From a virus: 28,149 bases of DNA. The notes under the pieces are model-generated. The model was not told the DNA's origin. It saw only the letters and a list, made by a program, of their open reading frames with translations, and searched no databases. Shown one piece after another: positions 3,096 to 12,675 of the stretch (the first letter of the stretch is position 1; each line of letters begins with the position of its first letter). A program made the translations under genes and the position numbers. The stretch is from IMG/VR virus record IMGVR_UViG_3300035205_000287, positions 1 through 28,149 of that record; one strand, 5' to 3'.

Positions 3096-3500
3096 TCAAA
3101 ATGTAGATTTAAATAAATTATTAAATTTGCAGATATAAGTTTTCTTGCGTAGCTGTTTGGCTATAGTAAGAGTGCTTTTAGTACCTCTTGACCTACCATC
3201 CCAAAACGCAATTATTATATCTGCATAATTAACGATTTCCTGATTCCTTAATGGACCAGCTTTCTTTCCATACAAACTCCAATTTGCATGAAATATCTTT
3301 ATGCTACAGCCATTATTTCTTGCGTATGTTTCACATAGCTGGTCAGCTCCACTTGCTCCACCAGATACAAACTCAACTTTAAGATGTTGAGGATGTTCAA
3401 AATCATAATGACTTAATATTTCTTGAATAGTGGAGCTTAATTTATTATAATCTGTAAAATGTCGTGAGCCGACAACTGCTACTTTAAATCGATTTAGCAT
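3096..3500 (-). CDS. SLOG/DUF2493 (YspA-like) nucleotide-binding protein
   Basis: The 134-aa protein has the full DUF2493 signature. It has an N-terminal strand and loop KVAVVGSRHFTDY (6-18), the nucleotide-binding FVSGGASGADQL (44-55), then HANWSLYGKKAGPLRNQEIV (71-90) and the second site DIIIAFWDGRSRGTKST (94-110). The fold is Rossmann-like, of the SLOG superfamily that includes DprA and lysine-decarboxylase-like (LOG) proteins. Members bind nucleotides or nucleotide-derived ligands and are often linked to conflict or signalling systems. The precise ligand of phage versions is not established. The start ATG 3500 has the CGAAAGGAGTACAAC site and overlaps the end of the 56-aa gene by 17 bases. 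Confidence 0.85.
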   Translation of the reverse strand: MLNRFKVAVVGSRHFTDYNKLSSTIQEILSHYDFEHPQHLKVEFVSGGASGADQLCETYARNNGCSIKIFHANWSLYGKKAGPLRNQEIVNYADIIIAFWDGRSRGTKSTLTIAKQLRKKTYICKFNNLFKSTF

Positions 3501-3654
3501 CCCGTTGTACTCCTTTCGTGTTTTTAAAATAATCTTTCGTTACTCGTTTAGATTTTAAGTTTATTATACAATCGGGATGGTCTTTATCTCGAGTAGGAGA
3601 TTTCGGATCGATTTCCCAATATGTGTAAATGTAATATTTAGTTTTAATAACCAT
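3484..3654 (-). CDS. hypothetical 56-aa basic protein, first gene of the leftward set
   Basis: Reading leftward from ATG 3654 gives MVIKTKYYIYTYWEIDPKSP, then TRDKDHPDCIINLKSKRVTK and a basic tail ending in RDAKSI. CGAAAGGAGTTCAC precedes the start and matches the site of the next gene. The protein is small, aromatic at the N-terminus and lysine-rich, and may be nucleic-acid binding; no family is recognised. It overlaps the SLOG gene, whose ribosome site lies within its coding sequence. Its promoter should lie between 3655 and about 3760, under the 5' part of the divergent RNA. Confidence 0.65.
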   Translation of the reverse strand: MVIKTKYYIYTYWEIDPKSPTRDKDHPDCIINLKSKRVTKDYFKNTKGVQRDAKSI

Positions 3655-3700
3655 AGTGAACTCCTTTCGTTATTTAGATTAAAAATTACAAGGTCAGAAC

Positions 3701-4416
3701 GACATCAAAATAGGACTAGTGGAGCTTCCAAAATGTGCCATAAGCACAGTTTGGTTAGTGTAGCTGAAGTAAAGTGCTAATTTGGTTTCAGTAGATGTTA
3801 AATTTGCGTTTGTACCATCTTTAAGATTTACGCAGAATCGAGCAAATTGTTATCATCTATCTAACAGTAATTACCGAAAAAAGAGCCGAACTTTAGTTCG
3901 GATGGAGCGAAAGGTTAGGAGACTTCAAATCTTTGATTTGTTATGTCGAGCTACCTTTACGGATAGAAAGTGATTACGCAAATTAGTGCTTTACTTTAGG
4001 GACTATTCTATTTTGATGTTAAACTATTAGCGTGGCTAGCCAACTGTGGGAGATTCCGAATGTCTCCTTTTGGTTCGTTTTGGAAACGAACTTAAGGCAT
4101 TTTAGGGTGTTTTTGCTCCACACTACGCCTTTGGTTCTTTTCTAAAGAACAGAAGAAGGGTGTGCCTCGTCTAGAATTTGGACCTGACCTCTTGTTGTTT
4201 CAGGTTCAAATTGTAGATAACGGGCTTGGAGCGAAATACATATTTCCCTAAAACTGCCGAACAGACTTACTTGTAATTTCAAGCGAAGATGAATTGAATT
4301 GCCCCTTGTGGGCTTGGAATCGAGATTCCAATTTAATTTAGCGAGGTTGAAATTACTATGCCTTTGGCATTTAAGCTCCCGATATAGTGGCAAGGTTCGA
4401 TACCTTGATACTATAT
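3701..4416 (+). ncRNA. candidate large structured RNA (about 720 nt) in the divergent gene-free region
   Basis: No credible gene covers 3655-4495. Hand folding gives two domains.
Domain 1: closing helix 3701-3715/4006-4020 (15 bp); hairpin 3728-3754; 21-bp helix 3764-3784/3979-3999; inside it, helices 3791-3797/3854-3860, 3801-3807/3842-3848, hairpin 3886-3901, and helix 3910-3915/3953-3958 around hairpin 3926-3940.
Domain 2: hairpins 4073-4091, 4094-4131, 4134-4150 and 4170-4217 (13 bp plus 4). GGAGC/GCTCC (4228-4232/4375-4379) encloses 10-bp helix 4273-4282/4347-4356, a three-way junction (4291-4300/4330-4339 with hairpins 4301-4313 and 4314-4331) and hairpin 4358-4370. T-loop hairpin 4382-4416 ends it.
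G.U pairs in these helices would be A.C on the other strand, so the plus strand is the likely RNA. Ends are approximate. The family is unassigned. Confidence 0.65.
4382..4416 (+). other. hairpin with a tRNA-type T-loop
   Basis: ATATAGT (4382-4388) pairs with ACTATAT (4410-4416). Inside it CAAGG (4391-4395) and CCTTG (4403-4407) enclose TTCGATA, exactly the length and pattern of a tRNA T-loop (TTC-R-A-N-N closed by G-C). Two bases on each side separate the stems, so it is not a tRNA acceptor/T-arm stack, and no D-arm or anticodon arm fits upstream. It is probably the 3' terminal element of the large RNA, where a T-loop could dock to a distant loop. An attachment site copied from a tRNA 3' end is an alternative I consider weaker. 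Confidence 0.5.
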
Positions 4417-4448
4417 TTAGATGTGAGTTAAATTGATGACGAATTGTC

Positions 4449-4477
4449 TTGACAAGGGTTTTTTGAGGAACTATTCG
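4449..4477 (+). promoter_or_regulatory. weak promoter or terminator candidate before the late genes
   Basis: TTGACA at 4449-4454 is followed after 17 bases by TATTCG (4472-4477), a poor match to a sigma-70 -10 box. The same stretch holds TTGTC-TT-GACAA followed by GGGTTTTTT, which looks like a short-stem terminator for the preceding RNA. Both readings are weak, and one or the other may apply. The small terminase gene begins 19 bases later. Confidence 0.25.
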
Positions 4478-4495
4478 TGAGAAGGCACATCAATA

Positions 4496-4858
4496 ATGAA
4501 CAATTTAACTCATAAACAAAAAGCGTTGGTTGATACGCTAGTAACGAGAGGTGGCAGTATCAAGGATGCATCACAAATCGCTGGATATGCAAAGGGTGAA
4601 GCTGGTCGAGTAGTAGCTAGTAGAACGCTACGATTACCACAGGTACAGAAGTATATGATGGAGCGTATCGCCAACACTATAGGAACGGGAGCTATTACTG
4701 CTTCACGAAAGCTGGTTGAATTATCGGAAGGTGCAAGGAGTGAGTATGTACAACTAGAAGCCAGTAAGGATATACTGGATCGGGTAGGCATACGACAACC
4801 AGACAGAGTACAAGCTGAAGTAATAGGCGACATTAAAATCAACATAGACTTAAGATAA
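4496..4858 (+). CDS. terminase small subunit
   Basis: This 120-aa protein starts MNNLTHKQKALVDTLVTRGG, followed by DASQIAGYAKGEAGRVVASR, the usual N-terminal helix-turn-helix of small terminases ('LTxKQxxFVxxxxxxGGxxxxAAxxAGY'). It continues with a central helical oligomerisation part and the family-like end YVQLEASKDILDRVGIRQPD. The small subunit recognises phage DNA and hands it to the motor subunit; here the motor gene is five genes downstream. The ribosome site GAAGG lies 10 bases before the ATG. It is the first gene of the rightward set and is flanked on both sides by structured noncoding sequence. Length is normal for the family. Confidence 0.85.
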   Translation: MNNLTHKQKALVDTLVTRGGSIKDASQIAGYAKGEAGRVVASRTLRLPQVQKYMMERIANTIGTGAITASRKLVELSEGARSEYVQLEASKDILDRVGIRQPDRVQAEVIGDIKINIDLR

Positions 4859-5114
4859 GCCATAGCACACGAATAAGTGGAGCTTTAGCTCCTCTATTGG
4901 CGAAATTGCTATGGAATCGCCCATTAACGAATGTCCTTCGGGAAAACGAAGGGGGGGGCAAAAGTTGTAAAACTTTTGGTATTATCCCTCTTGGACAAGC
5001 AATTTTTCTTCTAAAAAGTTCGTTCCTGTGAGTTGCTAAAAAGGTATTTAGGATTTATGACTGTTCCTCTCGGTAGAATCAATCTATCGCTTTAACCTAA
5101 CAGAAGGATACATA
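4859..5114 (+). other. gene-free interval with clustered hairpins
   Basis: These 256 bases carry no convincing gene. CCATAGCA (4860-4867) pairs with TGCTATGG (4907-4914) around a GGAGC-TTTA-GCTCC hairpin (4879-4892). CCTTCG/CGAAGG (4935-4940/4947-4952) and CAAAAGTT/AACTTTTG (4959-4966/4971-4978) form two more. A run of eight G (4951-4958) sits between the last two. From 4979 to 5100 only weak pairing is seen (AGCAA with TTGCT at 4998-5037). It may be a leader, a processing region, or DNA recognised by the adjacent terminase. Confidence 0.5.
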
Positions 5115-5273
5115 ATGACTGATACAAAGGAAGCTGTTGCAAAAGCACCAGAAGAAGATAAAACAATCAAAACAAAAGACTATGACAAGGATTATGCATC
5201 CCTGAGGGAGAAGATGATAAGGATAAATTCTAATCAGGAGGAAAGTGAGGATAGAAGTGCCGAAAGTAGGTAA
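5115..5273 (+). CDS. hypothetical 52-aa charged protein
   Basis: ATG 5115 is preceded by AGAAGGA with 6-7 base spacing. The product begins MTDTKEAVAKAPEEDKTIKT and continues KDYDKDYASLREKMIRINSN to an acidic end (EESEDRSAESR). It is almost entirely charged and helical, and is probably a short coiled-coil or disordered protein. It overlaps the next small basic gene by 17 bases. Small charged proteins between the two terminase genes are common in marine podovirus-like phages, but their role is unknown. Confidence 0.6.
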   Translation: MTDTKEAVAKAPEEDKTIKTKDYDKDYASLREKMIRINSNQEESEDRSAESR

Positions 5274-5379
5274 GAAAAACTATCCCTATACGGCAAAGGG
5301 TATGGCGAGAGCTAAAGCTGCTGCCAAAAGAAAAGGGAAAAGGGTTTCCTATGCCAAGAAGTCAAAAGGCAAAAGGTAG
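5257..5379 (+). CDS. 40-aa basic phage protein (MPKVGKK type)
   Basis: The frame begins at GTG 5257 (GAGG 6 bases upstream; an earlier GTG at 5245 is too close to GGAGG). It reads MPKVGKKNYPYTAKGMARAK, then AAAKRKGKRVSYAKKSKGKR. The pattern 'MPKVGKKxxPYTxxGMxxAKxxAKxxGKxV' recurs in short basic proteins of many aquatic phages. It has about 17 Lys or Arg in 40 residues, so nucleic acid binding is likely. It overlaps the nuclease gene's start by 29 bases. The family association is from recognition; the function is inferred. Confidence 0.65.
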   Translation: MPKVGKKNYPYTAKGMARAKAAAKRKGKRVSYAKKSKGKR

Positions 5380-5686
5380 TAGGGTAGAAAGAGAGATCGT
5401 CAAGCTCTTTGAGGGAGCTGGATTCAAGGCGAGGCGACAGCCGTTGTCGGGGGCGTTGCCACAGTTTCCCCACGATGTTTATATCCACGACCTGTTCACA
5501 GGCTCTACGGCAGAGGTGAAGGCGAGGAAGGATGGAAAGGGTTTCACCCAGTTGGAGAGGTGGAAGGGATCGGCTGATCTCTTGATTCTCAAGAGAAATA
5601 ATGCTACTCCTTTCGTCTGTGCCGACTGGAATTTTTTTAAAGGTCTTTTAGATGTCTATAGACGATCAAGTGAATTTGGAGAATAG
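5351..5686 (+). CDS. PDDEXK nuclease, Holliday-junction-resolvase-like (Hjc type)
   Basis: This 111-aa protein has the compact PDDEXK core. The N-terminal helix KGSRVEREIVKLFEGAGFKA (8-27) carries the conserved Glu (13 or 15), followed by RRQPLSGALPQFPHDVYI with the metal-binding Asp42 and STAEVKARKD with the E55-x-K57 pair. The order and spacing match archaeal Hjc and related phage resolvases, which cut branched DNA. In a phage next to the terminase this would trim replication or recombination junctions before packaging. The gene is noticeably GC-rich (about 5390-5560) compared with its neighbours. The start ATG 5351 has GGG 6 bases upstream; the end overlaps the next gene. Confidence 0.8.
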   Translation: MPRSQKAKGSRVEREIVKLFEGAGFKARRQPLSGALPQFPHDVYIHDLFTGSTAEVKARKDGKGFTQLERWKGSADLLILKRNNATPFVCADWNFFKGLLDVYRRSSEFGE

Positions 5687-11829: not shown

Positions 11830-12675
11830 ATGAGTTCGACTATTAACAATGCCTTTATCACTCAGTTTGAGGCTGAAGTGCATATGGCATATCAACGGAT
11901 GGGATCAAAACTTAAGAACCTTGTTCGTGTAGTTAATGGTGTATCAGGAGAATCGGTTAAGTTTCAAAAAGTTGGTACAGGCTCTGCCTCAACGAAAGCA
12001 AGACACGCTGAAGTTGTGGCTATGAATATTAGCCATACCAATGTAACTGCGACATTAGCTGACTACTATGCATCTGACTATGTAGACAAGCTCGACGAGT
12101 TAAAGATCAACATTGACGAAAGATCAGTGATTGCAAACAACGCTGCTTATGCTCTTGGTAGAAAGACGGATGACATTGTATTAACTGCAATGGCTTCTGC
12201 TACAACTCTAGCAAATAATGCTGGAGCTTCTGGTGGTTCACCAGCTACCGATATGAACATAGACAAGTTCAAAGAAATGCAAGAACTGTTCGGAACAAAT
12301 AATGTTCCTGATGATTCTGCTAGATACTGGGCTATTGGACCGAGCCAATGGTCAGATTTACTAGCTGATAATCAATGGACCCAAATGGAATATTTAGGAA
12401 ACAAGGAATTACCTTTTGCTGGTATGAATTATACTGCAAAACGATTCGTTGGATTCTTGGTATTTGTCCATTCTGGTCTAAAGACATCAGGTTCAACTGA
12501 TAGGCACACTGTTGCGTGGCATAAGTCGTCTATGGGACTTGGCGTAGGTACTGATGTAAGAACCGAAGCCAACTACATCCCAGAAAAAGTATCACATCTA
12601 TTGACATCTTATTTGTCAATGGGATCAATACTTATTGACACTAATGGCATTCGCATACAGAAAGCCGCTGAATAG
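11830..12675 (+). CDS. major capsid protein
   Basis: This 281-aa protein follows the strongest ribosome site in the window and a 123-base leader. The N-terminal arm MSSTINNAFITQFEAEVHMA, then AYQRMGSKLKNLVRV and GVSGESVKFQKVGTGSAS, are typical of podovirus-like capsid proteins. The P-domain helix DERSVIANNAAYALGRKTDD and the late motif MGLGVGTDVRTEANYIPEKV with MGSILIDTNGIRIQKA also fit. It builds the icosahedral shell with an HK97 fold. It is shorter than T7 gp10A (345). There is no obvious N-terminal delta-domain for removal, since the scaffold is a separate protein. Confidence 0.9.
   Translation: MSSTINNAFITQFEAEVHMAYQRMGSKLKNLVRVVNGVSGESVKFQKVGTGSASTKARHAEVVAMNISHTNVTATLADYYASDYVDKLDELKINIDERSVIANNAAYALGRKTDDIVLTAMASATTLANNAGASGGSPATDMNIDKFKEMQELFGTNNVPDDSARYWAIGPSQWSDLLADNQWTQMEYLGNKELPFAGMNYTAKRFVGFLVFVHSGLKTSGSTDRHTVAWHKSSMGLGVGTDVRTEANYIPEKVSHLLTSYLSMGSILIDTNGIRIQKAAE

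Follow-up and report, generated by a model that had tools for sequence, protein, structure and literature searches.

What lies in the non-coding stretch that divides this virus's genes by direction? The window analysed here is the whole of IMG/VR record IMGVR_UViG_3300035205_000287 (positions 1-28,149, 28,149 bases). Its genes are on the minus strand left of about 3655 and on the plus strand from 4496 onward, the latter including terS, a Holliday-junction resolvase-like gene, terL, and genes for a head-tail adaptor, the major head protein, tail proteins, and internal virion proteins. A first-pass annotation found no credible gene in the roughly 840 bases between them, and proposed instead a large, ornate phage RNA recalling GOLLD and ROOL but possibly of a new class. 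From its fold and from comparison with homologues, 3655-4495 very probably encodes a structured RNA on the plus strand. Its parts and the neighboring genes are listed in Table 1.

The absence of a gene was borne out. No open reading frame in 3655-4495 is conserved, and the indels that separate homologues have lengths not divisible by three; domain A, for example, is 327 nt long in the window but 307 nt in the relative L082. A protein-coding explanation was rejected because reading frames are not kept among the homologues. The region does fold well. Over 841 nt the minimum free energy is -264.8 kcal/mol, whereas shuffles average -206.4 and none of 20 was as low (z -7.0). The minus strand has a folding z of -6.3. 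Free-energy folding recovered all of the long helices proposed earlier, G-U pairs included: the 21-bp helix of domain A (three G-U), a 15-bp one at 3701-3715/4006-4020 (two G-U), and a 13-bp hairpin at 4175-4187/4200-4212 (one G-U). The three-way junction was found as well, as domain B (4096-4258), and domain C (4273-4356) is likewise branched. Sliding 240-nt windows did not single out the 5' half, where such a scan is uninformative because the long-range helices span more than 200 nt.

Two other stretches of the window are also folded. At 1850-2045, between genes of the minus-strand operon, folding is strong (z about -5 on both strands). On the minus strand, immediately before the gene that ends at 1857, this stretch has two tandem hairpins with a ribosome-binding-like loop, GAAGG(A/C)GTGA. 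A long hairpin comes next, and its CAAATCTTTGATTTG exactly repeats a hairpin of domain A (3926-3940). Beyond terS, 4859-5114 (about 250 nt) is again non-coding, has several hairpins, and is only mildly below shuffles (z -2.4).

Table 1. Features of the divergent region and its neighbors (window coordinates; ends of the folded part are predicted).
Feature	Position	Strand	Evidence or remark
YspA/SLOG-family protein gene, nearest sizeable divergent gene	3096..3500	-	Pfam YAcAr
Non-coding divergent region with probable structured RNA; folded part ~3690-4430	3655..4495	+	z -7.0; no Rfam match; homologues L082, L004, L085, L086
Domain A: closing helix 3701-3720/4002-4020, hairpin 3728-3754, 21-bp helix 3764-3784/3979-3999, inner branches 3785-3977	3701..4020	+	Covariation, constant G-U
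Linker hairpins 4027-4039, 4048-4068, 4072-4092	4027..4092	+	Folding; L082 has a different 147-nt block instead
Domain B: three-way junction, invariant internal loop GCCTCGTC / GATAACGGGCTT	4096..4258	+	Same fold in L004, L085, L086, helices replaced
Domain C: module with conserved CCC..GGGCTTGGRATCGAGATTCYAA	4273..4356	+	Present in L085, L086, L127; absent from near-identical L004, L128
3' hairpins 4358-4370 and 4381-4417	4358..4417	+	Folding; loop TTCGATA resembles T-loop
Promoter-like site TTGACA-17-TATTCG ahead of terS	4449..4477	+	TTGACA near terS in 64/72 relatives
terS, terminase small subunit	4496..4858	+	Pfam Terminase_2; PHROG 51
Holliday-junction resolvase-like gene	5351-5686	+	Encoded near the region

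Searching with TerS and TerL yielded 157 viral loci. Nucleotide homologues of the region are few: L082 (92-96% identity), the more diverged L004/L083, L085/L005, and L086, and L127 in one module only. Pattern scans for others returned only a 100% copy (L161) plus chance matches, and searching 50,697 phage records with the region gave chance matches only. L161 is a separate IMG/VR record of 10,925 bases (IMGVR_UViG_3300037195_001010), identical to the window over both the RNA region and terS, and may be the same virus.

The diverged homologues keep the architecture. Folded alone, L004 and L085 recover that of domain A overall, despite different helix sequences, and L004, L085, and L086 recover that of domain B, again with different helix sequences but with the internal loop invariant inside the replaced helices. 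In a plain sequence alignment of domain A, 95.8% of cells over 61 pairs are paired and 12 pairs have changed on both sides, six of them in the closing helix alone, although the small set, of four or five sequences from two close groups, limits the number of independent events. Controls with slid partners gave 0-2 two-sided pairs; the proposed pairs are thus not broken without compensation. At three positions a G-U pair is constant in all four sequences while neighboring pairs covary; two of these G-U pairs form a tandem U-G/G-U. For domains B and C, plain alignment put the helices out of register. It appears that the fold, rather than the sequence, would be under selection.

Close relatives differ in this region by whole blocks gained or lost. 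In five clean insertions (L086 vs L085, L085 vs L004, L127 vs L128, L022 vs L025, and L142 vs L143), 88-100% of the insert's paired bases pair internally, a share above that of most stretches of equal length in the same fold (combined p 9e-5); these five were picked, once the comparison table had been seen, by the small gap on the other side. Larger block replacements show no clear self-containment effect. Domain C is found in L127 although its TerS is only 63% identical and the remainder of its region is unrelated, which points to movement of this domain as a module by transfer. More generally, whole hairpin domains may be gained or lost at the locus as units among related phages.

Fast block turnover is also what would be seen if the hairpins had no function and template switching at a hot spot of recombination both made and repaired them. 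Quasi-palindrome correction can produce two-sided changes, and between close pairs the one-sided changes are about as frequent as neutrally expected, with two-sided ones in excess. It would not be expected, however, to preserve an architecture and an invariant internal loop through replacement of the helices around them, nor to have most relatives retain hundreds of non-coding bases at this locus in compact genomes, and such an origin seems very improbable.

A selected fold could be carried by either strand, and by RNA or DNA. In long helices defined solely by Watson-Crick pairs, G-T mismatches outnumber A-C ones by 75:13, against 66:56 in shuffles (three clusters, p 1.5e-6), and by 26:5 in the window's cluster alone (p 0.07), although these p-values are optimistic since related loci are not fully independent. 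Given this asymmetry, although one-sided changes between close pairs do not repeat it, and since enriched short words are strongly strand-asymmetric too, the folded species is likely to be the single-stranded plus strand. The constant G-U pairs speak for RNA rather than single-stranded DNA, as does the share of G-U in domains A and B (about 10% of pairs). In another cluster (L140, L142, L143, L145, and L149) the balance upstream of terS is reversed, as if the other strand folded (4:15, not significant).

If the folded molecule were instead DNA, the hairpins would form in extruded or single-stranded DNA and mark a site of packaging (cos/pac), of replication origin, or of promoter control, on which terminase or the Holliday-junction resolvase-like protein encoded nearby would act. 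The position immediately upstream of terS, like that of lambda cos, and the nearby resolvase-like gene would suit such an element, as would the sign change in G-C skew at the divergent region, though gene direction alone accounts for the latter. One-sided changes between close pairs show no preference for G-U (66 vs 78), again as might be expected of DNA. In five loci (L002, L003, L006, L007, and L088), at most about 450 nt upstream of terS, a promoter-like pair (TTTACT/TTGACT with TATAAT/TAAAAT) and the 3' arm of a long inverted repeat overlap, so the repeat may affect transcription start there.

Hairpin loops are part of this comparison as well. Upstream of terS in sister groups (e.g. L014, L022, L025, L040, L054, and L098), triloops are enriched for C(GNA)G, with 15 GNA vs one reverse complement, while GNRA and UNCG loops are almost absent; E. 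coli rRNA, used as a yardstick, has too few hairpins for this purpose. C-closed GNA triloops form very stable DNA mini-hairpins, so these loop frequencies keep a DNA element under consideration. GNA loops are, however, absent from the window's own cluster, where the tandem G-U pairs are constant within a helix, and neither these, the G-T:A-C asymmetry, nor the frequency of G-U in domains A and B is readily explained by DNA. It would also be surprising for a terminase site to have no common sequence when TerS across the group has 57-76% identity to that of the window. Overall we consider a DNA element unlikely. The C(GNA)G loops also prompted a comparison with N4-type virion-polymerase promoter hairpins, which were rejected because the large virion proteins have no polymerase match and the loops do not occur in the window's cluster.

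An RNA remains our preferred reading, and the region is not unique to this phage, but part of a hypervariable, modular locus found immediately upstream of terS across a group of marine phages. Across 72 non-redundant relatives, the 510 nt ahead of terS as a rule fold much more stably than their shuffles, with many z values between -3 and -18; TerL coding stretches, taken as controls, mostly do not. No sequence or fold element is common to all groups of these 72 loci except the TTGACA promoter-like site, which in 64 of them lies about 43-77 nt upstream of terS, between it and the fold. A 23-nt motif recurs in one sister group: each of the 13 loci examined that contain terS has it on the same strand, 315-528 nt ahead of that gene.

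Among cultured phages, the closest relative found was Pelagibacter phage EXVC031P Hodr (66% identity in TerL, 57% in TerS). Most of its relatives have an intensely folded gap immediately upstream of terS, with no sequence common across groups, and in Hodr itself a gap of about 340 nt (12037-12373, reverse strand of OQ414635) is dominated by one long hairpin (z -6.4). This inverted repeat (L159, OQ414635, 12007-12373; about 70 bp per arm) takes in the ribosome-binding site of the divergent gene, so that both directions carry a CCAAAGGAGG leader. Eight further relatives by TerS come from contigs assigned to MAGs, most of them marine; seven of these loci were folded, giving strong folds in L170-L172 and weak ones in L168, L169, L173, and L174. 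MEP301 was considered as a wider relative and rejected, its terS being inside an operon without such a gap; the locus thus looks specific to the window's group. No description of it was found in the literature, within the open part of PMC.

Taken together, we think it rather probable that ~3690-4430 is a fast-evolving, modular, stand-alone plus-strand phage RNA, most likely structural, made during lytic infection. It would be a non-coding RNA of about 700 nt with three independently folding domains joined by hairpins, lying in the divergent control region, pointing toward terS, and set apart from it by terS's own promoter-like site. This position and this separation are what make a stand-alone RNA the most likely form. 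It would presumably be transcribed and act in trans, and might have some role in packaging or lysis. The sequence scan of the window found no clear promoter upstream of the fold and no clear terminator downstream, which leaves room for a giant 5' leader on the mRNA of terS and the structural genes, controlling its stability, processing, or translation in cis. The fold is co-oriented with terS and adjacent to it, as a leader should be. The promoter-like site between the two in most loci would nevertheless yield a terS mRNA without the fold, and length and complexity are above those of usual leaders; this seems to us slightly less probable even than a DNA element.

Beyond the stand-alone RNA itself, it is a tentative possibility that the locus represents a new kind of RNA gene: a large, trans-acting structural RNA with a fixed address beside terS, in which hairpin domains are exchanged as cassettes and no sequence is kept group-wide. 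If so, its architecture would evolve by domain shuffling. To our knowledge few giant phage RNAs are known, with their functions open; that context aside, the locus offers a natural series for the study of large-RNA evolution by domain exchange. Its fixed address beside the packaging genes, its variants with and without particular domains, and a cultured relative with a similarly folded gap (Hodr, on Pelagibacter HTCC1062) allow direct tests of whether the RNA is expressed, how it assembles, and whether it takes part in packaging or lysis.

How the region compares to known systems can be partly answered by searches. In Rfam 15 no family matches it at gathering score, and none, the pRNA model included, at E<=5 in 3500-5150, consistent with the earlier suggestion of a new class. 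The GOLLD covariance model has no match in the window, in 30 relatives (at gathering score), or in five records at E<=10; there was no match to the ROOL model either, in a dedicated search whose control genomes contained no ROOL. In these partial contigs, no tRNA or tmRNA was found in the window or in seven relatives. The first-pass proposal is partly supported: covariation, constant G-U pairs, and strand asymmetry favor a large, ornate phage RNA, but membership in GOLLD or ROOL is not supported.

Of systems next to terS, lambda-like phages have cos/pac in a non-coding stretch immediately upstream, as here, but the present region differs in its covarying helices, constant G-U pairs, strand asymmetry, and lack of conserved sequence beside a conserved TerS. 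The phi29 pRNA, about 120-174 nt, is tied to a packaging motor that works without TerS; only position beside terS suggests kinship of role, and the region is several times larger. The closest likeness is to GOLLD (RF02032), a very large, ornate phage RNA with a variable 5' part, in some cases marine, and ROOL (RF03087), a large phage RNA with many helices, both of unknown function (PMC12286853). Size, phage setting, and complexity are similar in all three. GOLLD is often near tRNA islands and has a universally conserved 3' region, and both it and ROOL form multimeric RNA cages. For the region here no tRNA was found, and it sits upstream of terS; in contrast to GOLLD, the phage group has no universally conserved 3' domain, just the promoter-like site being common across groups, and in contrast to ROOL, domain composition varies among close relatives. 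While by available tests it is a member of neither, its size, setting, and complexity suggest that it would work most like GOLLD or ROOL.
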